Positions 12,817 to 43,416 of a DNA stretch of 45,700 nt are shown here, piece by piece; the first letter of the stretch is position 1, and the number at the start of each line of letters is the position of its first letter. Under the pieces are notes generated by a model. It worked only from the letters and a program-made list of their open reading frames with translations. It was not told the origin of the DNA and made no database searches. The stretch covers positions 1 to 45,700 of IMG/VR virus record IMGVR_UViG_3300037153_000305. One strand, given 5' to 3'. The position numbers and the translations under genes are program-made. The stretch comes from a virus.

Positions 12817-12971
12817 ATCAGATAACGAAAATTTCCCTTCTTCATCCGGACCGCTTTCGACAATGCGGTGCGGTTCTTGTGCCCGGCTTCCATGCGGGCG
12901 TGCTTGGTGAGCTTGAGCCAGTATCGGGCGATCGGGTCGCGCTCCAGCTCTTTATCTTTGCCATTCCTCAT
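12813..12971 (-). CDS. 52-aa basic protein in lysis cassette
   Basis: Start ATG at 12971 overlaps the upstream stop as ATGA, and its own stop overlaps the endolysin-like start as ATGA. It is rich in Lys/Arg (a KLTKHARMEAGHKNR segment) with no membrane segment. The function is unknown; the tight coupling on both sides argues that it is translated. Confidence 0.55.
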   Translation of the reverse strand: MRNGKDKELERDPIARYWLKLTKHARMEAGHKNRTALSKAVRMKKGNFRYLI

Positions 12972-13357
12972 AGTCCCAGCGCTCCCGCTTTGAGATAGAG
13001 AAACGCCGCCGCGCTGAGCACCATCGCGCCGATGATCCCCCACTGGATCAGGATCTGGTTGCGTTGTTTCTCGATCTTCACTTCGCTATTCTTCTCCGCG
13101 TCTTTCCAGGCGTCCCGCTCGGCGGCGATCCCGTCGATCTTCGTCTGGAGCCCGGCCGCTTCCTGGTGCGCCTTCGCGAGATCATCTTTCTGCTCGAGCA
13201 TGATCTTCTTCCGGTCCTCGCCGAGCTGGATCAGATGTTTCACCGTGGCCTGGATCTCGCCCCAGCTGAGCTTGGAGATGTCCTCGTCACTTGGTGCTTG
13301 GGCCTGCAGCGCCGCGGCCGCCATGGCCAGGATTAGTATTAGAGCGACTCGTTTCAT
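12968..13357 (-). CDS. i-spanin-like protein: signal peptide, coiled coil, C-terminal membrane segment
   Basis: It has 129 residues. Residues 1-21 are a Sec-type signal peptide ending Ala-Gln-Ala. Residues 35-100 are a charged heptad-rich coiled coil. Residues 101-127 form one transmembrane helix (IQWGIIGAMVLSAAAFLYL). This gives a periplasmic coiled coil anchored at its C-terminal end, the reverse of classical Rz. Its gene overlaps a downstream-encoded basic protein and follows a lipoprotein gene, so it is probably half of a spanin-type system linking inner and outer membranes during lysis. The assignment is by topology and context. Confidence 0.55.
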   Translation of the reverse strand: MKRVALILILAMAAAALQAQAPSDEDISKLSWGEIQATVKHLIQLGEDRKKIMLEQKDDLAKAHQEAAGLQTKIDGIAAERDAWKDAEKNSEVKIEKQRNQILIQWGIIGAMVLSAAAFLYLKAGALGL

Positions 13358-13572
13358 GGACCGACCTTCGGTTTATGCGTTTCAAGCCAGCGATCGATCA
13401 AGACCGCTTTCCGGTCCTCCCGGTCGCCGATCTCCAGGGCTTGCTGGTTCTTGGCAGCCGCTCCTGATACCGCGGCCTGGACCGGGGCCACGCTCGGCGC
13501 CGCCACGTAAGTGGTCTTTGCGCACCCGCTCAGGATTGCAAACAGACCGCCGGTTAAAATGATTGCTCTCAT
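13354..13572 (-). CDS. small lipoprotein, o-spanin candidate
   Basis: It has 72 residues with a short hydrophobic signal and lipobox LSGC, acylated Cys17. The mature part is Ala/Gln/Val-rich, then charged. It is coupled by ATGA to the coiled-coil membrane gene and to the holin-like gene. A small lipoprotein beside a coiled-coil inner-membrane protein is the classic two-component spanin layout (Rz/Rz1 type). Outer-membrane location is inferred from the lipobox and the absence of an Asp at +2 (the +2 residue is Ala). Confidence 0.6.
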   Translation of the reverse strand: MRAIILTGGLFAILSGCAKTTYVAAPSVAPVQAAVSGAAAKNQQALEIGDREDRKAVLIDRWLETHKPKVGP

Positions 13573-14792: not shown

Positions 14793-16298
14793 TTACCTCC
14801 CGTAACGCGTCTTGGGCGCTTGCTGGTCCGTGAGCGGATCGAACTGTGGCGCCAGGATCCGGCCAGCCGTCGCGGCTGTCTCGGCCGGCACCTTGGCTTC
14901 TTCGCCGTCGCCCTTGTCGGTCTGGCCTTGCTCCGCCATCACGTCGGCCAGCATCCCGCGCTCCACCTGGTCCAGTAGCCAGAACGGAAACGACACAGTC
15001 TCCCAATTTGTTGAGCCCGGCGGCACCGTGAGCGCGGCCAGGCCCATGGTGTCCTGGGATGAAAAATCGAGCGCCGGCGCCGCGGCATCGAATTGCGAGC
15101 TGATCCCGGTAAAGAAAGCATCCTGCGCTTGCGCGGCCGACATGGCTGCCACCAGGCCGGCCAGGATCTGCGGCCCCGAGTCGAGCGGCATCGAGGTGTA
15201 TTGGACCAGGTGCTCCGCGTCGTCCGAGCCGTGAAATACAAGTTGATACGTGGCGCCCGAGATCACCTGGCCTTCGGAGATACTGAGCCGGGTCACCTGC
15301 GGCGTGCCCAGGGACGATCCGGTCGGCATGATGTATGGCTGGACCTGGGTGACCGGGAACGGATACAGGATCAGGCCGGTCCCTGGATTGTAACCGGATA
15401 CGCCATTCACGAACACCGAAGCGTGCGCGAGCCGGATCGATTTCGTGGTGGGATTGTAAGTAATCGTAAACCCGCTCAGCCCCACCTGGCCAAGTAAATC
15501 GGCCACGAGCAAAGCACCTATGTCGTCGATCGTCTTGATCCCGTCGCCGTTCTCCGCCACCTGGCCGATGATGGCGCCGGTTGAGTCGAGGATCTGTATG
15601 TCGAATTCGCTAAATGCCGGTGGCGGATCCGGGAGCGTCGCCAGGCTGCTCGCGCTGAGCGTTCGGTTGATAAAGATATCCAGGATCTCCGTTTGCCCTG
15701 GCAGCCCTGCGTTGCCCAGCGTGCGCTCTGCTGTGATTTCTACTGTGAGCGGCGGCGGTTGGGTGATACTGTCGCCGGCCGGGTCGTGGCCCACGTTACC
15801 GTTGGTCTTACTCTTGTAACATTCCCCGGTCACCAGCGAATACGCGAGCTCGTCTTTGGCATAGATTCTATTACTGTCCCACGGCGTGGCGGTGAACTGC
15901 GGGCAGGGCGAGAGATATTTAATCCAGACGCTTGGACCGTGTCTGAATCCGACGTGGATCCCGTTCTCGAGCAACCGAAACGGCGTATCAATCGGCCAGG
16001 GCGTGGTGGTAGGATCCAGTAGGTAAACCTTGAGCACCCGGCCGTAGGTGAGCCGCGACACCACGCTTCCCGGCGGCCCGGCATTGTCGTCGTAAGGCAC
16101 GATGTGGGTCACTGGCACCGGGACTTGTTTGATCTTGGTCCAGTCCGGCCAGTCCTGCGCGTCGTACAACCGGCGAACCCAGCCGTTGGCATAGGTGGCC
16201 AGGGCGTCCGCCTGGTCCTGGAGAAAATCGCGGGTAGGATCCATGCCCATCTTGTAGGCCACGTCCCATAGCACTTGTTGGAATTTTACGTTTCTCAT
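14793..16298 (-). CDS. neck/adaptor protein, paralogue of 23633-24913
   Basis: It has 501 residues from ATG at 16298, four bases after the preceding stop. The opening MRNVKFQQVLWDVAYKMGMD is closely matched by the other copy (MRTVTFQSVFQGVLRRHGLD), and both continue with Pro-Thr and a helical segment. Both carry a YAKDELAYS/TGECY-type segment. In short-tailed phages the adaptor (P22 gp4, T7 gp11 class) forms the ring under the portal. This copy has an extra beta-rich C-terminal half (about residues 200-450) not present in the other, so it may do a different job such as fibre attachment. Confidence 0.6.
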   Translation of the reverse strand: MRNVKFQQVLWDVAYKMGMDPTRDFLQDQADALATYANGWVRRLYDAQDWPDWTKIKQVPVPVTHIVPYDDNAGPPGSVVSRLTYGRVLKVYLLDPTTTPWPIDTPFRLLENGIHVGFRHGPSVWIKYLSPCPQFTATPWDSNRIYAKDELAYSLVTGECYKSKTNGNVGHDPAGDSITQPPPLTVEITAERTLGNAGLPGQTEILDIFINRTLSASSLATLPDPPPAFSEFDIQILDSTGAIIGQVAENGDGIKTIDDIGALLVADLLGQVGLSGFTITYNPTTKSIRLAHASVFVNGVSGYNPGTGLILYPFPVTQVQPYIMPTGSSLGTPQVTRLSISEGQVISGATYQLVFHGSDDAEHLVQYTSMPLDSGPQILAGLVAAMSAAQAQDAFFTGISSQFDAAAPALDFSSQDTMGLAALTVPPGSTNWETVSFPFWLLDQVERGMLADVMAEQGQTDKGDGEEAKVPAETAATAGRILAPQFDPLTDQQAPKTRYGR

Positions 16299-16302
16299 GG
16301 CG

Positions 16303-16638
16303 TCATTGCTGGGCTGGGGGTGTGGCTTTGGCCATGTCGTTAAAGTGATTAACGACAGTCCTAGGCACGCGAAATTGTGCGCCTTCTGCTTTAATTTTCG
16401 CATCGTCGGGGATGGAGTACTTAAACTGCGCTTCCATGGCTTTATAGGTCTTGACCCAATCGGCGCCCACCAGCGTGGAATCGTCCTTGGCAGCTTTCCG
16501 CCGCGGCGCTGGTGCGCTCGGCGCGGCGCGCCGGTGCGTGGCCCGGTGCGTCGATCGTCGCGCTAGCGGTTTCACTTCCAATGTGCAGCTCACGGTCGCG
16601 AGAGCGAGAAACAAGGCTACGTATGTTCTCCATTTCAT
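16303..16638 (-). CDS. lipoprotein, second lysis-like pair
   Basis: It has 111 residues from ATG at 16638, coupled by ATGA to the coiled-coil membrane gene. A hydrophobic signal ends in TVSC (Cys18), a slightly weak lipobox. A basic Arg/Pro/Ala-rich linker (30-60) leads to a compact C-terminal domain that ends in a VNHFNDMAKA helix. It is paired with a membrane coiled-coil protein, like an o-spanin with its i-spanin. It could instead be an exclusion or adhesion lipoprotein. Confidence 0.55.
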   Translation of the reverse strand: MKWRTYVALFLALATVSCTLEVKPLARRSTHRATHRRAAPSAPAPRRKAAKDDSTLVGADWVKTYKAMEAQFKYSIPDDAKIKAEGAQFRVPRTVVNHFNDMAKATPPAQQ

Positions 16639-17012
16639 TTGTTGCCGTTGTGTTGTTGTTTGAGATCGTGCACGTCGGTTTCGATCCGGCTGATCTGCGA
16701 GGCCATCACGTCGATCTTGGCCAGCTGCGATTCGGCCTTGTCCAGGCGTTGCTCGTGGCGGGCCAGGGCCGATATATTGTTCTCGATCTTGCTCCCATAG
16801 GAGTCGTGGATCCGGTCCGCGGCCGTGGCTTCTGTCCGCCATTTCTCCCACTCATCATTCTTCTGCGCGTTCCTTCCCATGCCCACCAGTAGGCCGCCGG
16901 TCCAAAACAAGGCCTGGATGAACGCCCCGAGCACGTATGGAGCAAGTCCGTGCCACCATTTTCTGTTTCCATTTTCGTGTATGTGCATTCCTGGAAGTGA
17001 GAGTGCTACCAT
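16635..17012 (-). CDS. membrane-anchored coiled-coil protein, i-spanin-like
   Basis: It has 125 residues. One transmembrane segment at about residues 24-42 (LAPYVLGAFIQALFWTGGLL) is followed by a charged coiled coil to the C-terminus. This N-in, C-out layout is the usual Rz/i-spanin or holin-associated topology. It overlaps the beta-helix gene end by seven bases and the lipoprotein gene by four. A start at an internal ATG (16988) is possible. It makes a second candidate spanin pair, separate from 12968-13572. Confidence 0.55.
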   Translation of the reverse strand: MVALSLPGMHIHENGNRKWWHGLAPYVLGAFIQALFWTGGLLVGMGRNAQKNDEWEKWRTEATAADRIHDSYGSKIENNISALARHEQRLDKAESQLAKIDVMASQISRIETDVHDLKQQHNGNK

Positions 17013-18811
17013 GGTTTGTGCGCTCGGCGGCGCGGTTCAGGCCGGACCGGTGGAGGCGCGATCGTGGCCGTTGCGGTAGGGGTCGCGGTGGGTGTGGAGG
17101 TAGGTGTGGCAGTAGGTGTGGCCGTCGCCGTAGCCGTAGCCGTAGGACTCGCTGTAGGCGTAGGTGTCGGCGTACCTGTGCAGGGATTACCGCTCACAAG
17201 CGGATGAGGGTAGCAATACGGAACGTAGCCCGGTAGCTGAGTGTTCTGGAAGTAGTCAATCCCCTCGATCGATGCGATCTTAAGATAATCCGCGTTGTTG
17301 TAATTGATGTTTTGGCCGTTATCGAGATTGACGTTGTTAAACGAATACAGAGGTTCCGGATTCGATCCTGGATAAGCCGGAGAAGCTCGGTTGATGTGAC
17401 CACCCCAGCCCCGTCCGCATTGGTCGAGGTAATTCAGCGGCTTAACTATCTCGGCGGTTTGCCCCGCCGACCATCCAGTTGGGAATCCTACGTTGTATAA
17501 AAACAACGTGTTCGCGTTGTTCCCTGTGATTCCGGCGGATTGCCCGCTACTACGTCTAACCACGTATCCCTGCCATTGGTCCGTGATCCAGCCGGGGCTG
17601 CCGGGAAATGTTACCTGTCCATTTGATCCCGCTGTTAGCACTCCGCTCGCAAACACGAACGTCGAATGATTGTCCACATGAGTTCCATCGGATTCAGTGG
17701 CCATCAGGTCCCAGGTCTGGCCGGGGATTCCGTTGACGGTGAAATAGGGACTATTCCAGTCCAGGCCCATTCTGTAACAGGCAATGTCAATCGCCTCTCC
17801 GTTTCCTGTGCCGATGGTTTTATGGTTGTTGTCGAACGTGTTGTTATACCAATAGGCGCTACCTGTATCCGAGCCGTCCATGGTCTTGTTACTGTCATTC
17901 CAATGGAAGTCGTTGCTGTAAACCTCGTAAGCCCTGCCGCCACGGCCGTTTCCTTGTCTCCCTGTGCCGTGACAGACCAGGACCGCACCAACGACTGTGC
18001 CCGGAGCTGGCGGCCCTAGCGTTGTCTCGCCATGGAGATGGTTGTATCGGAAAACGGTTTTACCGCCCCACACGATATCGCCGCCGTGCTTGATCCAGTT
18101 ATCTTCTACGAAGAAGAACTGTGGCCCGCCAAAATTGACCGGGTTTTCAAAAGCGGCGTCGCCCTGGTCTCCCGCTCGGCCCGGCCCGTTTTGGATTACT
18201 CCATGTTCGCAGACTGAAACGTTGTGATCGAAGACGCCGTAGTTATAGGCGGTATTCCAAATGATGTTAGCCACCACGTTAATCGGACCGAAATAGCAAT
18301 GGTCCACTCTTACCGGCGTGGTTGGAGCATTGATCGTGCTCCCGTTTCCATCTACTCCAATTTGGATTACGGACGCGGACTGCGGATTCGCTCCGCTTGC
18401 TAGAAATGAGATTCCTGTTATCCGGACCAGGGCCCCGGTCGTGGTATTGATCTGAATTAATTGATGAGTCTGATTATCGATAATCTTGGAATTATCGACG
18501 TGAGTCCCCGGCGGGGGATCCCCTTGGAATGGCTGCTTGCATACTCCAGCGTTTGCCCAACTTCCTCCGCCACAGTGAGGGTCCGCGGTGCTGCTTCCTT
18601 GAAGCGTTATAGCTTTGGTGATGGTTAGCGTTCCGCTCCAGGTATATGACACGCCTGGAGTGTTAGGGATCGTGATGGTATCGCCATTAGCGGCGAAATT
18701 GTTATGAATGGATTGAACGTCGGCTAGCGATCCGTCGGAATTCCAGGTGACCGCGTACGCGTATCCGGTAACGAATAACAGGATCGAGGTTATGACGATC
18801 CACTTACTCAT
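17006..18811 (-). CDS. secreted parallel beta-helix protein
   Basis: It has 601 residues. Residues 1-20 are a Sec signal peptide ending AYA before VTWNSDG. The body (about 25-540) is Asn/Gly/Val-rich with repeated short strands (IDNQTHQLIQINTTTGALV), the texture of pectate-lyase-like right-handed beta-helices used by tail spikes and polysaccharide-degrading enzymes. The last 60 residues are a Pro-Thr/Ala-Thr tail ending in basic residues (RPEPRRRAHKPW). No catalytic triad can be assigned. It is coupled to the LamG-like gene before it and the membrane coiled-coil gene after it. Confidence 0.7.
   Translation of the reverse strand: MSKWIVITSILLFVTGYAYAVTWNSDGSLADVQSIHNNFAANGDTITIPNTPGVSYTWSGTLTITKAITLQGSSTADPHCGGGSWANAGVCKQPFQGDPPPGTHVDNSKIIDNQTHQLIQINTTTGALVRITGISFLASGANPQSASVIQIGVDGNGSTINAPTTPVRVDHCYFGPINVVANIIWNTAYNYGVFDHNVSVCEHGVIQNGPGRAGDQGDAAFENPVNFGGPQFFFVEDNWIKHGGDIVWGGKTVFRYNHLHGETTLGPPAPGTVVGAVLVCHGTGRQGNGRGGRAYEVYSNDFHWNDSNKTMDGSDTGSAYWYNNTFDNNHKTIGTGNGEAIDIACYRMGLDWNSPYFTVNGIPGQTWDLMATESDGTHVDNHSTFVFASGVLTAGSNGQVTFPGSPGWITDQWQGYVVRRSSGQSAGITGNNANTLFLYNVGFPTGWSAGQTAEIVKPLNYLDQCGRGWGGHINRASPAYPGSNPEPLYSFNNVNLDNGQNINYNNADYLKIASIEGIDYFQNTQLPGYVPYCYPHPLVSGNPCTGTPTPTPTASPTATATATATPTATPTSTPTATPTATATIAPPPVRPEPRRRAHKPW
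17055..17180. repeat. hexamer-like repeats encoding a Pro/Thr/Ala tail
   Basis: Degenerate 6-bp units related to CCGTAG and GGTGTG (plus strand) run through the 3' end of the beta-helix gene. On the coding strand they are read as alternating Thr-Ala and Thr-Pro. The CCGTAG unit is the same hexamer that builds the long tract at 37594-37890. Confidence 0.7.
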
Positions 18812-19962
18812 GGCGAAATCGTGGTGGTCCCACTTCCGCTAATTACGGTTGTGCCCGAGCCCGAGATCGTGCTGGTGGTCGAGCCCGGCGGGGAGATCGG
18901 ATTCTCGCTGCCGAGCGTGTAGAAGGTGCTCGGCGAATTTTGATTGTTATACTCGGTCGTAATCCAGTCCGCGCTCCTGGCCGTGGCGGAAAAGCGCACC
19001 TCGTCCAGGTCGCCATCGTAATCGTTGCCGCCGCCCAGGTTATCCGTTCCGACGTTAGCACTATAACCCACCGCGGCGGCGATCGTGCTCGCGGTCGTTG
19101 CGACCAGGGAGCCGCCCACATACATCTTGATACTGGTCCCGTCCCAGGTGGCGCAAATATATTTCCATCCAGTCGTGGCCACGCTCGGATCCTTTGCTTC
19201 GTCGCCGCCCCAGATCGCCACGAAAAACTGCGGCTGCGTAAAGCCGTTATCTTTGTAGCCGATGTGCGGCCCGTTGTTCGCGCTCCCGCCCCACATCGCT
19301 GCGAAATCGTCGCCGCCGGCGTAACCGCCCGCGATGTTAGTCCACATGGATACGGTCCAGGCTGTGTCCACCGGGATGTCGGTGGCGTTGGCAATCGAAA
19401 AGTTCTGGTGAGTCGCCCGGACCAGGTGCATGGCGCCGTCCATCTGTCCAGCCACGGCCGTCGGCGTGCCGGATCCGGTCCCGTCGTTCCCGCCTGTAGC
19501 GTCCGTGAGAGAAAGAGTCGTACCGTCTTTTAGGTGATAAACCGCCTTATAATTGCTATCCCAGGTCGAACTCGAGCTACCATCACTGCTAAGCCCAGAG
19601 TCCCCGTACGCCATGTAGATGATCGTGTTACTCGAGTGCGAGACCGTCGGCACCTTCACCCAAAACACGCACTCGCCGGTAGACGCGTTGTATCGCTCCA
19701 GCTCGTAATTCAACGGCGTGGTCAGACCTGAATCCGAGTACCATCGGATATCGTATCCGTTCGAGTTAGCTACGTGCCCGCCGTTGCCGATCGTCTTTAA
19801 GCTGGCGTCCGTGGTGTTAAACAGGACCGGAAAATTAAGCGAATCGCTCCCGCCGCATTTGCTCGAGTCGATCGTGACCGATCGATAATAAGTGAACGCT
19901 CCGAAAGCGTTGCTCGCCCACAGTAGCGCGACTAAAATTAAGGTGTGGGTTGATCTATCCAT
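18808..19962 (-). CDS. secreted DUF2341/LamG-like adhesin
   Basis: It has 384 residues. Residues 1-22 form a signal peptide (ending ASNAFGA). Residues 25-125 resemble DUF2341 (YRSVTIDSSKCGG start, FPVLFN, DIRWYSDSG, WVKVPTVSHSS, IYMAYGD). Residues 135-345 look like a concanavalin-like LamG domain (KAVYHLKDGTTLSLTDATG, AWTVSMWTN, GDLDEVRFS). These domains bind carbohydrate or surface polymers. The end is a low-complexity Ser/Thr/Gly repeat (SGSGTTVISGSGTT). In this context it is a host-contact protein, but export suggests it may work on the surface of the lysogen or in the envelope. Confidence 0.72.
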   Translation of the reverse strand: MDRSTHTLILVALLWASNAFGAFTYYRSVTIDSSKCGGSDSLNFPVLFNTTDASLKTIGNGGHVANSNGYDIRWYSDSGLTTPLNYELERYNASTGECVFWVKVPTVSHSSNTIIYMAYGDSGLSSDGSSSSTWDSNYKAVYHLKDGTTLSLTDATGGNDGTGSGTPTAVAGQMDGAMHLVRATHQNFSIANATDIPVDTAWTVSMWTNIAGGYAGGDDFAAMWGGSANNGPHIGYKDNGFTQPQFFVAIWGGDEAKDPSVATTGWKYICATWDGTSIKMYVGGSLVATTASTIAAAVGYSANVGTDNLGGGNDYDGDLDEVRFSATARSADWITTEYNNQNSPSTFYTLGSENPISPPGSTTSTISGSGTTVISGSGTTTISP

Positions 19963-22900
19963 GATATTACAGCTCTGTTAGTTCCACTGAACGAAGTTCC
20001 GCCGCTAAAGCTCACTCCGATCTTTGTCGCGGCGCTGGAATCAAATCCGCTGGAAGCAGCCGGCACGATCGTCCAGGCCGCGGCGTTGTTAAAAAGACCG
20101 GTAGTAGCGAGGTTATGCTGGGCTTTGATGAAACCGGCCACCACGGCTGAGGTGCCGCTTCCCACGGACCTGAAAACAACCGTGAGATCGAAGGTTCCTG
20201 TATCAGCCGCCGCGGTCCCGGCTCCGAAAGTAAAAGTTAAACGTGCGGCGTCGAGCGTGCTTGCGGTGGTCCCAATTCTCACGGTTACGACTGAGGTCGC
20301 GGTCCCGGCCGCCGTCTTGGCCATGTCAAAACTGCAATGGTAAACACCTTTCGCCTTGAAATCGCCGGCGCCCACTGATATAGCCGATCCGGTCAGATAG
20401 GTGTCACTGGCAAATCCGGTCTGGTCCGCGGTGCTGGCGTTGTTAATTCCGGTCGCCTGGGCCGTAACGTTGGTGCTATCGCTGATCCATTGATATCCGA
20501 GCGTCCCAGCCGTAGCTGGAATTGTGTAGGTCGAGGAGACGAAGTTAGAGCCGTTGCCCCGTAGGAACTGCCCGTTCGCGGCTGCTCCGCCGATCTGAAA
20601 TCCAGTCCCCGCGTTCACGGTGCCGCCGGCGATCGTGAGCGTGCCGTTTAACTTCGTGTTACCGTTGCCCACCCATAGCGCGTAAGGGTTCGTGATAACC
20701 GCAGATCCGCTCACCGCCGGCGCATCCTCAATGTAAAGCGTGGCCGCGTTCGTGATCGTGACCGCTGACGAATCGGTGATGGTCGGCTTATAAATCGAGA
20801 CCTTGTTAAAGCCTTTCGCGGTAGTGACGTTTGTTGTCCCGGTTACGGTCGTGGTGTTAGCCGCAACTTTTACATCGTCCAAGACTGCGGATGCTCCAGA
20901 CGCGATCGTTCGGGCTTCGTTGAAATTGTGAGCGCCCGTCCACGCCGGCGCGATTGCCTGGTCCAGGGCTGGGGCCCCGTCCGCTCGGGTCGTGTTGGTG
21001 GAAGTTCCGTTTACGGCCGCGAGACCTACTAACGCGGTTGGATTCGCTGTCCCTGGCGAAGCCGTCCAGTTGATCCCGTCTGAGATAAGCCTGTTGCCGG
21101 CCGTTCCTGGGGCTGCGTAGGTCTCGGTCGAATTGGTGTATTTCCCTCCGTCGCTTTTAAGGATCTTCCCGCTGGTCGCGGCGGAGTTGCCCGCCCAAAA
21201 ACCCTGGCCTGCTTCGATGATGCCGGCGCCGGGATCCGTCGTGTTATTGACCGCAAACCCTCCCGAAGCAAACAACCTGGCCTTTTCTGCCACCGATCCG
21301 GCGTTGTTAAGCCGGAAAACCATGTAAGACGTTCGCGTCGCATCGGTAACATCGCTCCAGGCGGTCTGGATTTGTCCCTGGATTCGCCCCAGCGTGGTTG
21401 AACTCTCGGCCTTGAAATCGTATCCCGTTCCAAGCCCCGCTGCCGGGCTGCCGGTAGTGTTATGCGTTGCTGCGACAATCGTGGTCACAGCGTTGTTGGT
21501 CGCGTCGTCGGTTGTCAGCGAGATGTTACCGCCTCCGATCGTTAGTTGGCCGCCGACCGTAAGGGCGTCTGTTGAATCATTATAGGTGAGCCCTGCGTCA
21601 CCTGCGAAAGCGCCTGTCTTGTTATATTGGACCTGAGTGTCCGAACCGCCTGGCGGGCTCCCGCCGCCCCCACCGGTGGCGTTGAGCGTGTTGCCGCTCA
21701 TGGATAAATTCGTTCCCAGCGTGATCTCCTGGGCCGGTCCGTTACTCCCGGATCCGGTCCCTAGCAGTTTTGAAGCTGCGCTTATACCGATGTTGCCCGG
21801 ATAGGTGTTGATGAGCTCCGTGATGGTTCCGTTATTGGACAACATCAAGCCATCTGTCCTGGCTACGCCATCCTTCTTGATCACCGCGCTGGAAGCTTGC
21901 TGGAGATCGAAGTTGACTGATCCTGTTGAATTTCGGGTGATGGCTACGTTGTGCAGCTCCACCACACTGGAGGCACCGCTGGCGTTCACCGCCACATTCG
22001 TGCCCGTAGAATTGATGGCCGTAAGCGAGCCGTCTCTGAACAGGACCGTCCCGTTCGCCACGTTGATGTTGCGAGCTGCCGGATTCGGCGAACCATCCGC
22101 ATAGAAATCGCAATTCCGAAAAGTGAATGTTCCGCCTTGTCCGCAAAACAAAGTGTCGAACTGGCTTTGCAGGTTCGCGTTTTCCATTACCAGACCGGTC
22201 GTACCCGGCTTGTTCAGATAAATGCAGTCCGAGTTTCCGATGAGTTTTATCCCTGCCGCGTATGCCGAAGTGAAAGCCGCGCTACCTCCGCCAACACCGA
22301 ATACGGCCCCGGTGGCCGCCAGGTTCTGAACGGTCAGACCGTAGACGGCGCTAGCCGTGGATGGCTCCAGTACCGCTCGCGTAGTTCCGACTGAGCCGGT
22401 AATGATCGTATAATCAGGACCTGCTCCTATAAGAGTTACGCCTGCCGGGATCACGAGCGGCGTAGCGCCCTGCCCGAATGTCCCAGGGCCTACGTAAACT
22501 ATGTCTCCGGCCGACACCTTTGAAAACGCCGTGGGTATATCCGCGCATGGCCGAGCCAGGTTGCCTTTCGCGCAAGTCACGTTGAGGCCATTAGTTTGGT
22601 CCACCCAAATCTGGCCGCCCACCGGAAGATTATTTTGCGCAATGCCAGTCAAGGACCCGGAGATATTAGAGAAGCTCGGCTGCGCCTTGGTGAAGATCCC
22701 GTTGCTCATTCCTGTCAGAAAATTGTTGGGCGCACCCGAATCCGGGATAACTGTCCAACTACCGCTTCCGCCGATACTCACCTGGAAGATTGAGCTTGTC
22801 GGGATATTGGTTGTGCTAAATCGGATCTGCTTTGTCGGATCCGATGTGTCGGATATGTAAAATTTGTTGGCTTGCGCCAGTACGTTATTGCTCCCGTCCA

Positions 22901-23636
22901 ACGTTAAGACAGCCGTTCCGCCAAACGCGCCTGAGTTATTAAACTGCAACTGCGCGTTGCTGCCCCCAGGAGTTCCGCCGCCGCCGGTGGCCGATAGCGT
23001 GCCACCGCTCAGCGTGAGATTTGCGCCAACAGCGATCTCTTCCATTGGCCCGGAGCTGGCGGTCGATCGACCTATTAGCTTCCCGGTATTCATACCGGTC
23101 TGTGCCAGGGCCAGTAGTCCGTTGATATCAGAGAACAGCGGCTGTGCGAACGTCAACAGGCCGCCGGACCCGATTCCAGTTGCAAACTGATGCGCCGGAG
23201 CTGTAGATGGGACGACGGTCACTGAGTCCGCGCTGGGGGCGACGTTAAGCGTTCTCACAGTTGCCGTACTAAAGGCGCCAAGGCTGATTTGGACCTTCTT
23301 GGTGGCGTCAACCACGTCGGCCCAGGTAAACCTCGAGCCGGTACGGAATGTGACTGTGTTGCCGTCGTAGGTCGCGAACGGGATCCCGCCAAAGGTCAGC
23401 GAGTTATTAAATTGGAGTTGCGTATTGGTGCCCCCTGGTGTCCCGCCGCCGCCAGCGCCTCCGCCGCAGTTGGTAGTCACGTCGGTACAATCAAGATCAA
23501 ACGAGGCACTATTAGAGTGCGGTGGTTTGATGATCTTATGCGTGACGGTGTCCTGGGTGATCGTACGAGTCCCGGCGCGGGCGACAACCAGCAGGCCACA
23601 CGCAATGGCCATCGAGAGCAAGATAGTTTTCTTCAT
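19938..23636 (-). CDS. 1232-aa tail-fibre-like protein with signal peptide
   Basis: Start ATG at 23636 overlaps the adaptor stop as ATGA; an ATG 15 bases upstream is less well placed. Residues 1-21 are a Sec signal (MKKTILLSMAIACGLLVVARA). Three copies of a fibre module (GGTNTQLQFNNSLTFGG-like) occur near 65-100, 221-255 and 655-695. A pectate-lyase-like beta-helix segment lies about 340-590 (VGPGTFGQGATPLVIPAGV). The C-terminal 130 residues look like a trimeric beta head. Size and modules are those of a phage tail fibre or an adhesin. The signal peptide is odd for a virion protein. It overlaps the LamG gene by 25 bases. Confidence 0.75.
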   Translation of the reverse strand: MKKTILLSMAIACGLLVVARAGTRTITQDTVTHKIIKPPHSNSASFDLDCTDVTTNCGGGAGGGGTPGGTNTQLQFNNSLTFGGIPFATYDGNTVTFRTGSRFTWADVVDATKKVQISLGAFSTATVRTLNVAPSADSVTVVPSTAPAHQFATGIGSGGLLTFAQPLFSDINGLLALAQTGMNTGKLIGRSTASSGPMEEIAVGANLTLSGGTLSATGGGGTPGGSNAQLQFNNSGAFGGTAVLTLDGSNNVLAQANKFYISDTSDPTKQIRFSTTNIPTSSIFQVSIGGSGSWTVIPDSGAPNNFLTGMSNGIFTKAQPSFSNISGSLTGIAQNNLPVGGQIWVDQTNGLNVTCAKGNLARPCADIPTAFSKVSAGDIVYVGPGTFGQGATPLVIPAGVTLIGAGPDYTIITGSVGTTRAVLEPSTASAVYGLTVQNLAATGAVFGVGGGSAAFTSAYAAGIKLIGNSDCIYLNKPGTTGLVMENANLQSQFDTLFCGQGGTFTFRNCDFYADGSPNPAARNINVANGTVLFRDGSLTAINSTGTNVAVNASGASSVVELHNVAITRNSTGSVNFDLQQASSAVIKKDGVARTDGLMLSNNGTITELINTYPGNIGISAASKLLGTGSGSNGPAQEITLGTNLSMSGNTLNATGGGGGSPPGGSDTQVQYNKTGAFAGDAGLTYNDSTDALTVGGQLTIGGGNISLTTDDATNNAVTTIVAATHNTTGSPAAGLGTGYDFKAESSTTLGRIQGQIQTAWSDVTDATRTSYMVFRLNNAGSVAEKARLFASGGFAVNNTTDPGAGIIEAGQGFWAGNSAATSGKILKSDGGKYTNSTETYAAPGTAGNRLISDGINWTASPGTANPTALVGLAAVNGTSTNTTRADGAPALDQAIAPAWTGAHNFNEARTIASGASAVLDDVKVAANTTTVTGTTNVTTAKGFNKVSIYKPTITDSSAVTITNAATLYIEDAPAVSGSAVITNPYALWVGNGNTKLNGTLTIAGGTVNAGTGFQIGGAAANGQFLRGNGSNFVSSTYTIPATAGTLGYQWISDSTNVTAQATGINNASTADQTGFASDTYLTGSAISVGAGDFKAKGVYHCSFDMAKTAAGTATSVVTVRIGTTASTLDAARLTFTFGAGTAAADTGTFDLTVVFRSVGSGTSAVVAGFIKAQHNLATTGLFNNAAAWTIVPAASSGFDSSAATKIGVSFSGGTSFSGTNRAVISWIDQPTP

Positions 23637-24913
23637 GTTACCTGAACCCAATGCTTGTCATTATTTAGAGAGTCGTAGTCCGCCGGGCGCACCTGGCCGG
23701 GATCGGATGCGTCGGACGGCCCTGTCACGAGCTGCCAGGTCTGTCGGGACCGTACACCGCTCAACGTGATCACCAGCTCGACCAGAGAGCCGGGCAGCCA
23801 GTTGCGTGTCGCAAGTCCTTCCAGGGTGTGCGGGGAGCCCAGCAACGAGCTGATCTCCGGATGAAATTCCCAAACCACCTGGGACCGCGTCGGCGTGGGC
23901 GGCACCACGTAATCCTGCTCGCACACATCGCTCAATGTGGTCACGGTGCTTCCGCTCCACGGCTGCGAAACGCAGACGCCACGGCGCCACCAGGGTGACC
24001 AGAAAAGATTATAGTAATACGTCTGTCCCTGGGCCTGGAGCGCGTCGATCTCGGTTTCGAGGTACGCGGCGGCTTCGGATTCGGCGAGTTGGGCTCGCGC
24101 CAGGCGCACTTGTTCGTCGCCTTCCCTGAACGTTTCCCGCAAACAATCCGCGTATGCGCCGGCTTCCACGAAAGCCGCCAGCGCCTCGAGCATCGGCTCG
24201 ATTGCCCAAAAATTCTGGTTGGTCGGATCCTGGTTTACGGTCGGTCCCAGGGCGCGGTAACACTCGCCAGTTTCCGGAAAAAACACCCTTTCGCCGGCTT
24301 CGTTCGTTTTCCCTGGGATATACGGGAAGATCGTAAACTTCGGCGGGGGCAGCATGTAATGGACGAACACGGTCGGTCCCGGTCCGCCGTACACGTCGAT
24401 CCCTTTCTCGCTCGGCCGGAATGGCAGGCCACAGAATCCGCAGCCGGCCAGGCGCGGATTGGCCCGGTAAATGCCTAGGACCTGGCCGATCGTGCGCCGG
24501 CACGTCTGGTCCAGCTCGATAAAAGTGTCCACTGGCGTTAGCGGATCGAAATACGTGGTGTTCGTGGGAAGCGTTCCCACCGGCGGGTCGCTCGGCGCGG
24601 TCGATTTGACCTTGTAATAACCCTGGTCCGACAACTGGATGATCGGGGTCCCGATGTAGAAAAATTCGTCCGGCGCTCCGTTGTCGCCCACGCGTAGGAA
24701 TTGCCGGGTATTATTCCAGATCGATCGAAACGCCCGTTCCTCCGTGTGACTGAACTCCTGGAAGTCCCATTGTTTCAGCCCGTATCCGGCCCGGCGGCTG
24801 ATCTTCTCGGCGATCGCCTCTCCGGTATCCATGGTGATCGCGTCCCCGGTCGGATCCAGGCCATGCCGGCGCAGCACACCCTGGAAAACGGACTGGAAAG
24901 TAACGGTCCGCAC
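23633..24913 (-). CDS. neck/adaptor protein (gp4/tubular A-like)
   Basis: It has 426 residues with a GTG start at 24913 and AGGAG seven bases upstream. Helical N-terminus, then segments for ring formation, and Cys-rich patches (CRRTIGQVLG, CGFCGLPF). It shares its opening with 14793-16298, so the two are paralogues or arose from a duplication. Placed just after the head genes, it is the better candidate for the true portal adaptor. No signal peptide. The name is by context and length. Confidence 0.6.
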   Translation of the reverse strand: MRTVTFQSVFQGVLRRHGLDPTGDAITMDTGEAIAEKISRRAGYGLKQWDFQEFSHTEERAFRSIWNNTRQFLRVGDNGAPDEFFYIGTPIIQLSDQGYYKVKSTAPSDPPVGTLPTNTTYFDPLTPVDTFIELDQTCRRTIGQVLGIYRANPRLAGCGFCGLPFRPSEKGIDVYGGPGPTVFVHYMLPPPKFTIFPYIPGKTNEAGERVFFPETGECYRALGPTVNQDPTNQNFWAIEPMLEALAAFVEAGAYADCLRETFREGDEQVRLARAQLAESEAAAYLETEIDALQAQGQTYYYNLFWSPWWRRGVCVSQPWSGSTVTTLSDVCEQDYVVPPTPTRSQVVWEFHPEISSLLGSPHTLEGLATRNWLPGSLVELVITLSGVRSRQTWQLVTGPSDASDPGQVRPADYDSLNNDKHWVQVT

Positions 24914-24924
24914 CCTTAGCTCCT

Positions 24925-25407
24925 TTACTGATCGAATCCCTGGATGTTGGCCGCGGCGTTCGTGTTCCCGGCGCCGCCGGATGGCAATGTCACGGTGATC
25001 GCCGTATTCACGGCGCTCGCAGGAATCGGATTATCGAAATTGACGATTAGCGGAGTGGCCTGAGCGGTTACGCCAGCCGGAAATACGAATGTGTACGTGA
25101 GCGTCCCGGTCACGAGCCCCGTCACGGTGGCGTTGACCACCAGGGCCACAGTCGATCCGGCGGCGGTGAGCTGGAAACCGGTGATGTAATTGGTCCTGCC
25201 GGCGACTGCGCCCAGGGTCGCCGCGGCGGAGCTCGCCGCTACGTTCCCGCTGGCGCCGGTCTTAAAGTTGGCTCCGGTTGGGATCGTCGAAGCCACACGC
25301 ACGTTGGCCGGCCGCGTCGGGGGATTGATCACGGTAACGTTCGGATTGTCCGCGTACGCGTTGGCTGCGATCGCGGCTGTCAAAATAAGGGTGATAAACT
25401 TCGTCAT
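24925..25407 (-). CDS. small secreted protein, head/tail boundary
   Basis: It has 160 residues and a strong ribosome site (AGGAG five bases before ATG). Residues 1-19 are a Sec signal ending AYA before DNPNVTV. The mature part is Ala/Thr/Val-rich and beta, without cysteines. It is flanked by head and adaptor genes and is the first of four consecutive or near-consecutive late genes with signal peptides. The function is unknown; a secreted adhesin, fibre partner or envelope protein are options. Confidence 0.65.
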   Translation of the reverse strand: MTKFITLILTAAIAANAYADNPNVTVINPPTRPANVRVASTIPTGANFKTGASGNVAASSAAATLGAVAGRTNYITGFQLTAAGSTVALVVNATVTGLVTGTLTYTFVFPAGVTAQATPLIVNFDNPIPASAVNTAITVTLPSGGAGNTNAAANIQGFDQ

Positions 25408-26498: not shown

Positions 26499-27485
26499 TT
26501 AGGTGGCTGCGATTTTGAAATGCCCGCGCGGATCGCCAAACTCGTACCCGAGAATGGAGTCGATCAGCCCGCTCATCCCGCCGCCTTGGAACGGCAGCGG
26601 CGTATGCTCGCAATACATGAGCGGCCGCATCTTCATGTATTCCATGTTGAGCCCGTATCCCCATTTCTGGTCCTCGATGAAGGGGACCAGCACGATCTCG
26701 AACGTTCCGAAGTCGCCCTCGAACACGTCGATCCCGTAGCCCGCGTATTTGCGGCTATCCAACGCCTCCTGGGTGGTGCGGACCACCGTGGTGAAGTTGG
26801 CCTTGTTTGGCGAATATTTGCCGAAGTAGGTCGAGATCTGCACCTTCAACGAGCTGCCGGCAAACAGCACCAGATCGGTGGTTTGCCCCAGATTGTCGAA
26901 GCGGCTTTTCATGATGCTGATCAGCTGCGCTTCGTCGTTCAGGTTGGCAAGCGTCCCGGTGTAGATCTGCGCCGTCGGCGTCCGATAGGTGGACTTGATT
27001 GTGGTCAACGCATCGCTCCAGGCGAGCGTCCCGTCGTTAACCACTCGGGCGATCCCGAGCATCTTGGCTCCTACGGTTCCGGTGTCATCGGCGCTATCTT
27101 GGCTCGAGAGCAGGACGGTTTCCACGTCCCTCTTTTGCTCGAGCACTTTCTTCGTGACCTGTTGGTCGTACTTGCCGAAGTTGCCCGCGGCTTTATTCAC
27201 GCGCTGGGCGATTTTGCTCACCCTGGGTGTGCGATTGAATTCCTGGGCACGGTTAAATAGCTTGTCCTCCTGGTCGCCCTCGAACGTGATCACGTCCTGG
27301 TTCTCAGGTGGCGGCGTCGTGTTACGGTTGCCCATCTGGGTGACGGGCCACTGGAAGAACATATTTTCTAGCGTGTCTCCCTTGCGCAGACGCGATGTGA
27401 ACGGCGTATTCCGCACGTCCGCTAAAATTAAAGCATCACTCAGGTCCTCGCGTACGACCTGATTTTGCGTGGTTACTGCTGGCAA
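26499..27485 (-). CDS. major capsid protein, SU10/DUF5309-like HK97 fold
   Basis: It has 328 residues. The N-terminal segment (REDLSDALILADVRNTPFTS) followed by a MFFQWPVTQ strand is typical of the SU10/DUF5309 branch of HK97-fold capsid proteins, which begin with a helix and a threonine-phenylalanine-threonine loop. Start is TTG at 27485 with GAGG a few bases upstream; the next Met is at about residue 41, which would cut into the conserved start, so the TTG is preferred. It forms the head shell. It lies after the scaffold and before the decoration-like protein. Family assignment is by eye; length fits. Confidence 0.85.
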   Translation of the reverse strand: MPAVTTQNQVVREDLSDALILADVRNTPFTSRLRKGDTLENMFFQWPVTQMGNRNTTPPPENQDVITFEGDQEDKLFNRAQEFNRTPRVSKIAQRVNKAAGNFGKYDQQVTKKVLEQKRDVETVLLSSQDSADDTGTVGAKMLGIARVVNDGTLAWSDALTTIKSTYRTPTAQIYTGTLANLNDEAQLISIMKSRFDNLGQTTDLVLFAGSSLKVQISTYFGKYSPNKANFTTVVRTTQEALDSRKYAGYGIDVFEGDFGTFEIVLVPFIEDQKWGYGLNMEYMKMRPLMYCEHTPLPFQGGGMSGLIDSILGYEFGDPRGHFKIAAT

Positions 27486-37269: not shown

Positions 37270-37923
37270 CTAGAATGGGCATTTGCCCAGATCCGCGATG
37301 AAGGTGCGTTTTAAGGACGCGATTTTATTTCCGTCACCAACTACCGGCTCATGGAGCGCAACGATCCACCACCTTTCTCCTTTCCACTTCGTAGGGTCCA
37401 TCGACCCGTGAAGCGCGTGTCGACTGCAAATTTTTAACGGACCTTCGACCTGCTGAATTTTCCCAACTTCGGCTCGATCGCCGCTTCCCCCGTTTGATGG
37501 CGATCCTTCCATGTTGGATCGCCAAAAGCACAGCACAGCTTTACGAATTTTTGTGCTCCAACCCTTCAACAGCTCCGACCAATATTTTTTTGCGTCGCCG
37601 TAGCCGTAGCCGTAGCCGTAGCCGTCGCCGTAGCCGTAGCCGTAGCCGTAGCCGTAGCCGTAGCCGTAGCCGTAGCCGTCGCCGTCGCCGTAGCCGTCGC
37701 CGTAGCCGTAGCCGTAGCCGTAGCCGTAGCCGTAGCCGTAGCCGTAGCCGTAGCCGTCGCCGTAGCCGTAGCCGTAGCCGTCGCAGTAGCCGTAGCCGTT
37801 GCCGTCGCCGTAGCCGTAGCCGTAGCCGTCGCCGTAGCCGTAGCCGTAGCCGTCGCAGTAGCCGTAGCCGTTGCCGTCGCCGTCGCCGTACTGGGTTGTT
37901 ATTTCCAGGGTTCCTTTTGCCAC
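37270..37923 (-). CDS. Gly-Tyr repeat protein
   Basis: GTG at 37923 with GGAGG four bases before it is the likely start; a longer frame upstream has no supported start. Residues about 12-110 are a tract of Gly-Tyr, Gly-Asp and a few Gly-Asn/Cys-Asp units. The C-terminal 110 residues form a compact domain with CSRHALHGSM, KWKGERWWIVALHEP and a SLKRT end. Similar C-terminal domains with variable G-Y/G-D tracts occur in phages and metagenomes as far as I recall. The role is unknown; the tract may be flexible or aggregating. It overlaps the DUF6948-like gene by 25 bases. Confidence 0.65.
   Translation of the reverse strand: MAKGTLEITTQYGDGDGNGYGYCDGYGYGYGDGYGYGYGDGNGYGYCDGYGYGYGDGYGYGYGYGYGYGYGYGYGDGYGDGDGYGYGYGYGYGYGYGYGDGYGYGYGYGDAKKYWSELLKGWSTKIRKAVLCFWRSNMEGSPSNGGSGDRAEVGKIQQVEGPLKICSRHALHGSMDPTKWKGERWWIVALHEPVVGDGNKIASLKRTFIADLGKCPF
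37594..37890. repeat. CCGTAG hexanucleotide tract with a 72-bp higher-order repeat
   Basis: Nearly 300 bases consist of 6-bp units, mainly CCGTAG with CCGTCG, CCGTTG and GCAGTA variants on the plus strand. A 72-bp block repeats within it: the marker TCGCAGTAGC occurs at 37781 and again 72 bp later at 37853. All units keep the coding frame of the minus-strand gene, so changes in copy number are tolerated in steps of two residues. Confidence 0.9.
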
Positions 37924-38201
37924 TTTTCCTCCGCCTCCTCGGAGACCTCCATGATGCTGGTGACGTTTTGGAGCGTGATCGCCGGAATTGCGGGCCCGAT
38001 TCTGCAATTCGCGCTGGGCCCTGGATTAGCCAGGCCTAGCACGCCTTTAATATCGGCGGACCAGTACACGCACATCCGTGCTCGCTTTAGCCGGATTGTT
38101 TTCTTCGTTGTGGGTTCGCCGTAACCGAAGAACACACCGCGATGCGCAGTGGTCACGATTAACGGCTCTTCTTTATTGGTTTGTTGCTTTGTTTTGTTCA
38201 T
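37899..38201 (-). CDS. DUF6948-like protein
   Basis: It has 100 residues with AAGGA about eight bases before ATG. It contains HRGVFFGYGEPTTKK, ARMCVYWSADIKGVLGLA, GPSANCRIGP and VTSIMEVSEEAEEKW, a family of small phage and host proteins that I recall as DUF6948. No function is known for the family. It is followed by the Gly-Tyr repeat protein, an arrangement I believe recurs elsewhere. Confidence 0.65.
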   Translation of the reverse strand: MNKTKQQTNKEEPLIVTTAHRGVFFGYGEPTTKKTIRLKRARMCVYWSADIKGVLGLANPGPSANCRIGPAIPAITLQNVTSIMEVSEEAEEKWQKEPWK

Positions 38202-38205
38202 ACTT

Positions 38206-39717
38206 TCATTCCTTTGCCTCCGTGGCGTTGAAGATCTCTTTGATGCCGGCCAGCGCCTGGGCTTCGGCGTCCTGGTCTTTTGCCTGCCGCTCGTCCAGAC
38301 GATTGGAATACAGCGGTCGCTCTTCGTCCTGACTCTCGAATTTGGCGTATTCCTTGGTAAATCTCAGCTTCACGGTCCCCACCGGTCCGCGGCGTTGCTT
38401 GGCGATAATCAGCTCGGTGTATCGGAGAAATTCCGGCACGCTCATTTCGTATTTCTCGGCCAGGTCTCGCATGTGATCGTCGCCCTTGGCGTAGTAGCTC
38501 GGCCGGTAAAGCAGCCCCACAAAGTGCGCTTCCTGCTCCATGCTGCCGCTCTCCCGTAGGTCCGCCAGTTGCGGCCGGTTGCTATGGCGTTTTTCCACTT
38601 CCCGGTTCAACTGCGCCAGAACCACGATCGGCACCTGCAGTTCTTTCGCGGTTTGACTGATCCCCTGGGCGATCTCGTTTAACTCTTGCTCACGGCTGGA
38701 TTGCGCTCGCCTACTGGTCGAGCACATCCGCTGGATGTAATCGATGATGATTAACCTCACTCCCAGCTTCCTCACGGCGCGCCTGGCTCGGGCGCGAAAC
38801 TCGAAAATGGACAGCGTGCTTTTATCGTCGATGTATATCGGCGCCGGTTTCACAACTTCGGTCCCCTCCAGGTGCAGGCGTTCGCGTTCTTCTTTCTCGA
38901 AAAATCCGTCGCGCAACCGGATCAAGTCGATCTCGGAGCGACGGCATAGGATCACTTCCGTGAGCTCGTGCGCCGTCATTTCCACGGAGAAAATCGACAC
39001 CGGATGCTGGCTCTCAGCGTTGTCGATTGCGACGTGCTCGGCGAACTCGGTTCCCAGGGAGCTCTTCCCCATGGCTGGCCTGGCCGCAACGTAGTAGGTC
39101 CGACCTTTCTGAAATCCTCCGGTCATTCGATCCAGGTCAGCGAATCCGGTCGAGATCCCGATCGGGTGCCCCCGCCGGCGCCAGACCGCATCGATCGAGT
39201 CCAGGACTTCCTGCACGCCGTCGCCGATCCGCTTCAAGGATTCTTGGATCCGACCGGTTTGGCCGATCTCGATCGTTCGGGCCTGCAACTCCTCCAGTAT
39301 CTTCTCCGTATCGGTGCTCTCGTCGTACGCTTGCCGTGCCGCGTTCGTGGCCGACGCGATCATTTCACGGCGGATCCATTTTTCCCGGACAATCTCCACG
39401 TAGTAATCCACGTTCGCGGCCGTTGGCACGTACGTGAAGAGCTCGGTCACGTATGCCGCTCCACCCAGCCCTTGGAGAAGTCCGTCGTTCCGGAGCTGCT
39501 GGGTAAAGGTGATCAGATCGATCGGAATTTTCTGCGTCTTGCTCTTGGTAATGGCATGGAAAAGCGTCTGGTGTGCCGGAATGTAAAACGCTGTCGCGTC
39601 CACGGATTCTTGCACGTCCTCGATTACGCTTTCCCCGCCCAGCATCATACTGGCGATCACGCCCATTTCCGCTTCCGGACTGTGCGGCGATTGTTGGTGG
39701 ATCTCTGGAGCTTTCAT
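38206..39717 (-). CDS. dnaB: replicative DNA helicase, DnaB family
   Basis: It has 503 residues. N-terminal DnaB domain (about 8-115), linker, then a RecA-like core with Walker A ARPAMGKS at 212-219 and a Walker B-type RLIIIDYIQRM near 322-332. The DnaB H4-like segment (about 370-400, QLNREVEKRHSN...DLRESGSMEQEA) is present. It unwinds the fork in a 5'-3' direction and depends on a loader, which is the likely role of the neighbouring initiator. It overlaps that gene as ATGA. It brings no polymerase or primase with it, so the phage relies on host enzymes. Confidence 0.92.
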   Translation of the reverse strand: MKAPEIHQQSPHSPEAEMGVIASMMLGGESVIEDVQESVDATAFYIPAHQTLFHAITKSKTQKIPIDLITFTQQLRNDGLLQGLGGAAYVTELFTYVPTAANVDYYVEIVREKWIRREMIASATNAARQAYDESTDTEKILEELQARTIEIGQTGRIQESLKRIGDGVQEVLDSIDAVWRRRGHPIGISTGFADLDRMTGGFQKGRTYYVAARPAMGKSSLGTEFAEHVAIDNAESQHPVSIFSVEMTAHELTEVILCRRSEIDLIRLRDGFFEKEERERLHLEGTEVVKPAPIYIDDKSTLSIFEFRARARRAVRKLGVRLIIIDYIQRMCSTSRRAQSSREQELNEIAQGISQTAKELQVPIVVLAQLNREVEKRHSNRPQLADLRESGSMEQEAHFVGLLYRPSYYAKGDDHMRDLAEKYEMSVPEFLRYTELIIAKQRRGPVGTVKLRFTKEYAKFESQDEERPLYSNRLDERQAKDQDAEAQALAGIKEIFNATEAKE

Positions 39718-43002: not shown

Positions 43003-43416
43003 GTGAGCAGGTTTTCTAACGCTTTAGCCGTCGCCCTGGATCAGCTTGGCTGGACACGCAGGGGATTCAGCCGCATCAGTGGTATACCCGAGAGCCAGGT
43101 AAGCAAATATGCTCGTGGCCTTATAGGAGCCGGCGCCGGCGTCCTGGAGACGATCGCGCGGCAGTTACCGGAGGCCCAGCGAGCGAGCGTAGTCACAGCA
43201 TGGCTGCGCGATCATTTACCTGAGACCGCTAGGGGCTTGGTCGAGATCAGAACGCCCGCGGGAACTGTCGCCGAAGAACCGCAGATCGTTCTCGAGCCGG
43301 AATTACAAAGGGCCATGCATTACCTTGCTGAAATGGCACGACACCACCGCGAGATCGCCGATCTGCTTATCGGCTTGTCGAAGAGTCTGCAAGGAGACAG
43401 GATACGAAAACAATGA
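43003..43416 (+). CDS. Xre-family prophage repressor
   Basis: It has 137 residues. GTG at 43003 has GGAG eight bases upstream and is preferred to the TTG 24 bases earlier. Residues about 12-40 form a helix-turn-helix (LGWTRRGFSRISGIPESQVS). No LexA/S24 peptidase domain is present, so inactivation on induction would need an anti-repressor or another route rather than RecA-stimulated self-cleavage. It faces the early operon and probably represses it by the palindromes in the switch. It is coupled by ATGA to a lipoprotein gene. Confidence 0.8.
   Translation: MSRFSNALAVALDQLGWTRRGFSRISGIPESQVSKYARGLIGAGAGVLETIARQLPEAQRASVVTAWLRDHLPETARGLVEIRTPAGTVAEEPQIVLEPELQRAMHYLAEMARHHREIADLLIGLSKSLQGDRIRKQ

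Follow-up and report, generated by a model that had tools for sequence, protein, structure and literature searches.

Sec-type leaders on late fibre- and adhesin-type genes of an apparently temperate short-tailed phage

The DNA analysed here, called the window below, is an entire IMG/VR record (IMGVR_UViG_3300037153_000305) of 45.7 kb. Four of its genes on the minus strand (24925..25407, 19938..23636, 18808..19962 and 17006..18811) start with Sec-type leaders. This observation, first made in a preliminary description from the letters alone, is real and was confirmed; cleavage and export in the host are predicted. It is proposed that the four proteins are late-made, Sec-exported receptor-binding or adhesin proteins that would be held in the periplasm and freed with the progeny at lysis. 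Taken as a whole, this explanation is considered about evenly balanced. The window phage is apparently temperate and short-tailed and belongs to the lineage of Cronobacter phage Ss1.

Leaders and domains of the four proteins

The open reading frames (ORFs) and starts of the four genes are as originally described. 24925..25407 encodes a small protein of 160 amino acids (aa) with a 19-aa signal peptide (25351-25407) and a mature part predicted to be beta-rich. 19938..23636 codes for a fibre-type protein of 1232 aa whose 21-aa leader (23574-23636) ends in ARA before G, 18808..19962 for a lectin-type protein of 384 aa with DUF2341 and LamG domains and a 21-aa leader (19900-19962), and 17006..18811 for an adhesin-type protein of 601 aa with a 20-aa leader (18752-18811), a Pro/Thr-rich linker and a basic C-terminus, PRRRAHKPW. 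By inspection, all four leaders have a positive n-region, a hydrophobic core and an A-x-A-like cleavage site near residue 20. Cleavage is predicted between MTKFITLILTAAIAANAYA and D in 24925, MKKTILLSMAIACGLLVVARA and G in 19938, MDRSTHTLILVALLWASNAFG and A in 18808, and MSKWIVITSILLFVTGYAYA and V in 17006. No alternative start that would yield a leaderless form was found within 45 codons in 18808 and 17006.

For scoring the leaders, 33 signal peptides of E. coli served to build a matrix (median 17.9 and 10th percentile 7.9 in leave-one-out). Scores of 17.3 (24925), 2.7 (19938), 13.4 (18808) and 6.5 (17006) were obtained; those of 24925, 18808 and 17006 fall within or close to what genuine signal peptides reach. 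All window genes that have neither leader nor lipobox nor membrane anchor score -2 or lower, and no core virion gene of the window has a Sec-type leader. In 4000 whole-protein shuffles each, the observed score was reached once for 24925 and for 18808, 12 times for 17006 and 308 times for 19938. The leader of 19938 is accepted because its homologues in the related loci L327, L325 and L330 carry well-scoring leaders (10.9, 9.8 and 6.6). In the controls (T7, phage Ss1 and a segment of the E. coli chromosome), 5 of 101 proteins score above 2: ZraP and YjaH, which are truly exported, ZraS, a membrane protein, T7 gp14, an ejected virion protein, and a doubtful Ss1 ORF. As the score of T7 gene 14 (4.3; L085:27728-28318) illustrates, ejection proteins can have hydrophobic N-termini that look like leaders.

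The preliminary description had also assigned fibre, LamG/DUF2341 and beta-helix domains. LamG and DUF2341 were borne out: In Pfam, 18808..19962 matches Laminin_G_3 (E=3e-17, 63.6 bits, cut-off 27.6) and DUF2341 (E=1e-10, 42.2 bits, cut-off 23.4). The beta-helix of 17006..18811 could not be confirmed. This protein has no Pfam or PDB match, and an AlphaFold model of its mature form (pLDDT 37, 4 sequences) is too poor to interpret; its homologue in L394 has a sub-threshold beta-helix match and Pro/Thr-rich repeats typical of cell-surface proteins. The term fibre for 19938..23636, which matches no PHROG, goes back to a weak Pfam match to the DUF5907 repeat and to homologues. Leader-bearing fibres of L330 and L187 (contigs G003 and G727), gp35 of Xanthomonas phage PBR31 and gp19 of Burkholderia phage BcepC6B match phrog_11393, 'tail fiber protein' (5e-14 to 1e-15). 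Because the C-terminal type of 19938, shared with contig G001, differs from the phrog_11393 domain, its fibre nature is deduced from the shared N-terminus, repeats and position. In five genomes, about 48 aa of the mature N-terminus are up to 58% identical and the C-terminal 150 aa are of different types; between the window and contig G726, 28/48 residues (58%) are identical at the mature N-terminus vs 40/135 (30%) at the C-terminus. A conserved mature N-terminus joined to a swapped C-terminus points to the usual plan of a virion-anchored fibre. For 24925, an AF2 model (pLDDT 52) is too poor to interpret, and a Foldseek match to a Curvibacter phage protein is a lead only. No match was found by tblastn in phages with 24925, 17006, 18808 or the C-terminus of 19938, by tblastn in plasmids with the L327 homologue of 17006, or in the PDB. 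A search of the four exported proteins for a lysis domain found none.

Conservation of the leaders and late-operon position

Leaders and their conservation, the position in the late operon, the fibre-type domains of relatives and the loss or gain of leaders can be read directly from the genomes. The three large genes lie in a slot that begins after a head-tail-adaptor-like structural protein (adaptor A, 23633..24913, minus strand; function inferred from position), homologues of which occur in 18 of 23 relatives searched. It is closed by a second adaptor-like protein, adaptor B (14793..16298, minus strand), a paralogue of adaptor A. Both flanking paralogues are kept by near relatives, which match both. 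The small gene 24925..25407 ends only 11 nt before adaptor A.

Whether signal peptides are conserved in this syntenic place had been raised in the preliminary description; they are, both in a syntenic block and in two protein families. In L327 (contig G726) the block is fully syntenic, with adaptor A, proteins of 1555, 395 and 576 aa, a holin-like membrane protein, a lipoprotein and adaptor B. All three large proteins bear leaders. The 1555-aa protein is 49% identical to 19938 over 702 aa (BLAST) and the 576-aa protein 32% identical to 17006 (42% over the aligned part). The 395-aa protein takes the place of the LamG gene; it is unrelated to the LamG protein and has a leader. Between 17006 and its L327 homologue (L327:17090-18820), the leader is identical at 1/20 positions and the mature part at 173/420 (41%). 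The letters of the leader have thus diverged with its property kept, which is the mark of a signal peptide retained for function. The Pro/Thr-rich linker and the conserved basic end (PRRRAHKPW in 17006, PRRRGHRPF in L327) are absent from a leaderless homologue in L393. Possibly, this basic end of 17006..18811 is a docking or sorting tail.

In the fibre family, a leader is present in 6/6 members seen (window, G726, G725, G003, G727, G001). Counterparts of 24925 with leaders occupy the same locus in G001, G002 and G004 (4/4 including the window), and a leader-bearing homologue, 51% identical, lies elsewhere, in L087; 24925 and relatives have the motif NVxVxNPxxxPVxV in common at the mature start. 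The homologue of the LamG protein 18808..19962 in L169 keeps its leader. More distant relatives have leaders, too, L342 on proteins of 746, 488 and 553 aa after the adaptor, L341, L207, L193 and L239 on single signal-peptide fibres, and likewise L340, where the locus is cut off, as it is in L325. Over all fetched relatives, a score above 6 is reached by 16/103 slot genes with 300 aa or more vs 4/841 core genes (Fisher p=4e-13), counts which include related sequences and depend on the matrix used; the four positive core genes all look like false starts. The leader bearers sit in several separate groups on the terminase tree.

Leaderless forms of the same proteins exist, too. The L393 homologue of 17006 is 66% identical and starts with MTFNSDGS at the mature start of the window protein, VTWNSDGS, with a stop codon just upstream. 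L393 is a different tailed phage (terminase phrog_15, portal phrog_21, head phrog_1005). LamG homologues in L168 (49% identical, MAFTYY) and L170 (MNFSYY) start at the mature AFTYY of the window protein, again with a stop just upstream. No leader hidden by a frameshift was found in any frame upstream of the L393, L168 and L170 homologues. Since the leaderless homologues begin exactly at the predicted mature N-terminus, the leader is, judged by these alignments, a removable module: The same proteins occur with and without the export tag. In the relatives L184 (6342-7619), L186 and L189, leaderless spikes occupy the slot; hence, exported and leaderless proteins may have the same role. G002 (L186:8195-10825) offers another leaderless alternative for the slot, a fibre-like extension that has no signal peptide and is fused directly to adaptor A.

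Gene ends in the slot overlap by 4, 25, 4, 7 and 4 nt. The fibre start overlaps the stop of adaptor A in 5/5 genomes, by 4 nt (ATGA) in the window, G725, G003 and G727 and by 1 nt in G726. In the window, a longer frame (19938-23651) opens with TTG; it is the ATG at 23636 that overlaps the stop of adaptor A. A sigma-70 pattern scan, the only promoter search, revealed no promoter-like site at the starts of the exported genes. Because gene ends overlap and the fibre start is coupled to the adaptor stop, the four exported proteins are predicted to be made late, together with components of the virion rather than from a cargo promoter. Lysis-type genes directly follow the exported genes in the window, L327, L169, PBR31 and BcepC6B.

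The window phage and its neighbouring genes

Nearly all window genes are on the minus strand, in the order terminase, portal, scaffold, head protein, exported-gene region, second adaptor, nozzle-like and ejection-type genes. The major head protein (26499..27485, minus strand; phrog_1328, E=7e-31) identifies the structural cluster and places the phage in the Ss1-like podovirus lineage; that of Cronobacter phage Ss1 is 25% identical. Ss1-like podoviruses share capsid lineage and gene order with the window. In contrast to the window, slot genes of aquatic Ss1-like relatives are mostly without leaders, and the tail fibre gene of Ss1 does not appear among the controls that score like signal peptides. 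An integrase-like gene (44331-45476) and a tRNA-Arg (45547) indicate that the phage is probably temperate. Close relatives are environmental contigs with terminases 56-63% identical. Terminase relatives were found in 12/388 Verrucomicrobiota genomes vs 0/295 Bacteroidota genomes (the genome at the search centre excepted), and most named genomes with matches belong to Verrucomicrobiota (Opitutae, Verrucomicrobiales, Pontiellaceae, Pedosphaera). This makes a verrucomicrobial host likely. A tRNA-based host search in 6 genomes gave no near-exact match. For verrucophage P8625, no signal peptides were detected by SignalP (PMC4642752).

Downstream of 17006..18811, and overlapping it by 7 nt, lies a gene for a protein with a membrane segment and a coiled coil (16635..17012, minus strand), which is holin- or inner-spanin-like. 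It has weak matches to the holin phrog_1296 and to DUF7365, and a counterpart occupies this position in both L327 and L191. It is followed by an outer-spanin-like lipoprotein gene with a lipobox, MKWRTYVALFLALATVSC (16303..16638, minus strand). A homologue of this lipoprotein is present in L191 (25%, e-8), and L327 has a lipoprotein in the same place. Exported products overlooked in the preliminary description are the protein encoded by 12968-13357 and the lipoproteins at 16303-16638, near 13572 and at 43413-43907. Besides the pair at 16303-17012, the window has a second lysis-like group at 12968-13572, composed of a protein (12968-13357) that has a signal peptide and, at its C-terminus, a membrane segment, and of the lipoprotein MRAIILTGGLFAILSGCAK near 13572.

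In several close relatives, the portal gene no longer precedes the head protein gene; it has moved behind adaptor B or into the interval that separates the head protein from adaptor A (L184:986-3154, L186:2264-4492, L189:4245-6497, L330:7543-9696; 57-58% identical to the window portal). The portal frame of G726 (G726:C1:12554-15667) is listed with one in-frame TAA in an unusually long ORF (1041 aa), and its terminase ORF is long as well (884 aa); error, insertion or recoding are candidate causes. Tandem repeats of 12/18 nt at 37527-37956, read as Gly-Tyr-Asp repeats in the ORF 37270-38007, partly resemble repeats in the Pro/Thr-rich part of 17006..18811. Two clusters of 10-nt repeats with a unit like GTGCTAACGG are found at 40220-40429 inside gene 39714-40790.

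Tail docking, receptor masking and other readings

In the proposed pathway, the host Sec machinery would route tail-type receptor-binding or adhesin proteins out of the cytoplasm. They would be synthesized late, in a translationally coupled operon with capsid and head-tail adaptor, directly before a spanin-like pair. The leader would carry them across the inner membrane and then be removed, and the exported proteins would gather in the periplasm as virions are being filled in the cytoplasm. Once the envelope is opened by holin and spanins, the exported adhesins would meet the progeny and leave the cell with them. For the fibre 19938..23636, attachment to the tail during or after lysis, by way of the conserved N-terminus of the mature protein, is judged slightly more probable than not. 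Docking may also occur for the LamG, 17006 and 24925 proteins, which might instead bind glycans in free form. What we infer is the export in the actual host, the storage in the periplasm and this last step. Textbook assembly of tailed phages is wholly cytoplasmic, and the preliminary description held that exported fibres cannot be added in the usual way. This is too strong: At lysis, the inner membrane is opened by holin lesions, and fibres of T4 and P22 in soluble form join particles in vitro, so that addition after export could take place. The suggestion of enzymes released on lysis is weakened. Lysis frees cytoplasmic proteins as well and therefore cannot, by itself, explain a signal peptide.

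Comparable proteins are encoded by cultured phages. PBR31 gp35 and BcepC6B gp19, which were reached via the C-terminal domain of the G003/G727 fibres, have clear signal peptides, MKKLIALFSLFCTSAFG before A and MKKLIAILLAVPALALG before A, with scores of 20.4 and 13.0, respectively. The searched passages of the PBR31 paper mention a signal peptide only for gp40, an esterase/deacetylase, and none for gp35 (PMC10975493). Like the window, both phages, which carry an integrase gene, have a fibre-type protein with a signal peptide; their genes lie directly before holin, endolysin and spanin genes and adjoin a leaderless fibre/spike. Unlike the window, PBR31 and BcepC6B have one small exported fibre next to this leaderless one, and they are not among the capsid relatives found for the window. 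The fibres Pectobacterium CB5_53 and Klebsiella KpV74_48 have the C-terminal domain (SLTAGDWDVxG...ARRVR) in common with PBR31 gp35, BcepC6B gp19 and the exported fibres of G003, G727 and G014 (33-46% identical). They differ in their N-terminus, which is no signal peptide; the exported fibres carry a signal peptide instead. A search of the CB5 paper for mass spectrometry of the virion found none. Lambda lom, located among tail genes and expressed in lysogens, encodes an exported outer-membrane protein (PMC12309495). Lom and other exported morons thus resemble the window proteins in being encoded among tail genes; Lom is an outer-membrane barrel, whereas the window has lectin- and fibre-type proteins in a tight late operon. 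Signal-arrest-release (SAR) endolysins and spanins are also late, Sec-dependent and genomic neighbours, but the four window proteins contain no lysis domain. Exported phage proteins among tail genes are known, as are tail fibres. Exported tail fibres were, in agreement with the preliminary description, not found reported in the open literature (subscription papers lay outside the search), and no description of a recurrent late-operon set of exported fibre- and lectin-type proteins in short-tailed phages was found there.

The main rival to the proposed pathway is free receptor masking, which is a serious though rather unlikely option. Here, the adhesins never join virions and bind host surface glycans in periplasm and lysate, which would block superinfection of the dying cell and keep progeny off debris. 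A signal peptide combined with a receptor-type C-terminal domain and no known virion anchor is consistent with masking, and so is the location directly before lysis-type genes. PBR31 gp40 has a signal peptide, too (PMC10975493). Since BcepC6B and PBR31 own a separate leaderless fibre/spike beside the exported one, an exported protein need not be a virion fibre. However, a decoy should share the binding domain of the virion fibre, and BcepC6B gp18/gp19 and PBR31 gp34/gp35 do not. Moreover, the N-terminus conserved among mature proteins of the fibre family has no role under masking, and the slots of the window, L327 and L342 were not found to contain a leaderless fibre. Docking is suggested by this N-terminus with its swapped C-termini, by the coupling to the adaptor and by the leaderless spikes in the slots of relatives. 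For the window lineage, docking of the fibre may be slightly ahead of free action, at low certainty.

It is improbable that the leaders stay mostly uncleaved and tether the adhesins in the inner membrane facing the periplasm, for lysis control or to block DNA entry. L325, L187 and L330, with hydrophobic stretches some 19-22 residues long, would fit such signal anchors, but the window leaders have short cores and A-x-A-like sites, those of 24925, 18808, 17006, L342, L341, PBR31 and BcepC6B are ordinary short signal peptides, and leaderless homologues start exactly at the predicted cut. A somewhat lower probability is given to lysogenic-conversion cargo (morons), i.e. surface adhesins expressed from the prophage and comparable to lambda Lom. 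The probably temperate lifestyle, the lom precedent of an exported, lysogen-expressed protein among tail genes (PMC12309495) and the surface-type repeats of the L394 homologue speak for it. Against it, and against the display by lysogens considered in the preliminary description, stand the overlapping gene ends inside a structural and lysis operon, the 11 nt before the adaptor and the absence, in the sigma-70 scan, of a promoter-like site at the starts; in addition, slot content swaps while position and leaders persist. Least probable are chance or vestigial leaders on ordinary fibres assembled in the cytoplasm. The leaderless homologues in L393, L168 and L170 imply that the mature protein works without a leader somewhere. 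Yet three large genes retain leaders at identities of 32-49%, replaced genes have them as well, and they occur in separate lineages of the large terminase subunit (TerL); leaders are also enriched among slot genes over core genes, as counted above.

Several points weigh against the exported-adhesin explanation itself. The signal-peptide scorer is home-made, and the 19938 leader by itself is not significant in it, with Arg near the cut being penalised. The fibre-family leaders of G725, G003, G726 and G727 have long hydrophobic cores and could stay membrane anchors. The exported fibres lack the N-terminal part of the CB5/KpV74 fibres, which, together with the separate leaderless fibre of BcepC6B and PBR31, points to free action. 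Exported slot genes are present in only 10/70 related loci; thus, export is not required in this phage family. The mature cysteine content is not raised (0.76% vs 0.78% and 0.67%), so oxidative or disulphide folding, considered as a reason for export, is unsupported. Virion proteomics or localisation data were found for no member, and the host is only a probable one.

Tentatively, and with considerable doubt, the exported fibres might define a class of tailed phages that finish their virions outside the cytoplasm, with Sec-exported fibres that mature in the periplasm and are fitted to tails at lysis. Annotation pipelines label such proteins 'tail fiber', and in this way they would enter host-range and receptor predictions as virion parts with their role in the virion unproven. 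The cultured members BcepC6B and PBR31 allow a direct test. An exported fibre set in several lineages would mean either late virion assembly outside the cytoplasm or unrecognised secreted receptor binders that manage exclusion and debris.

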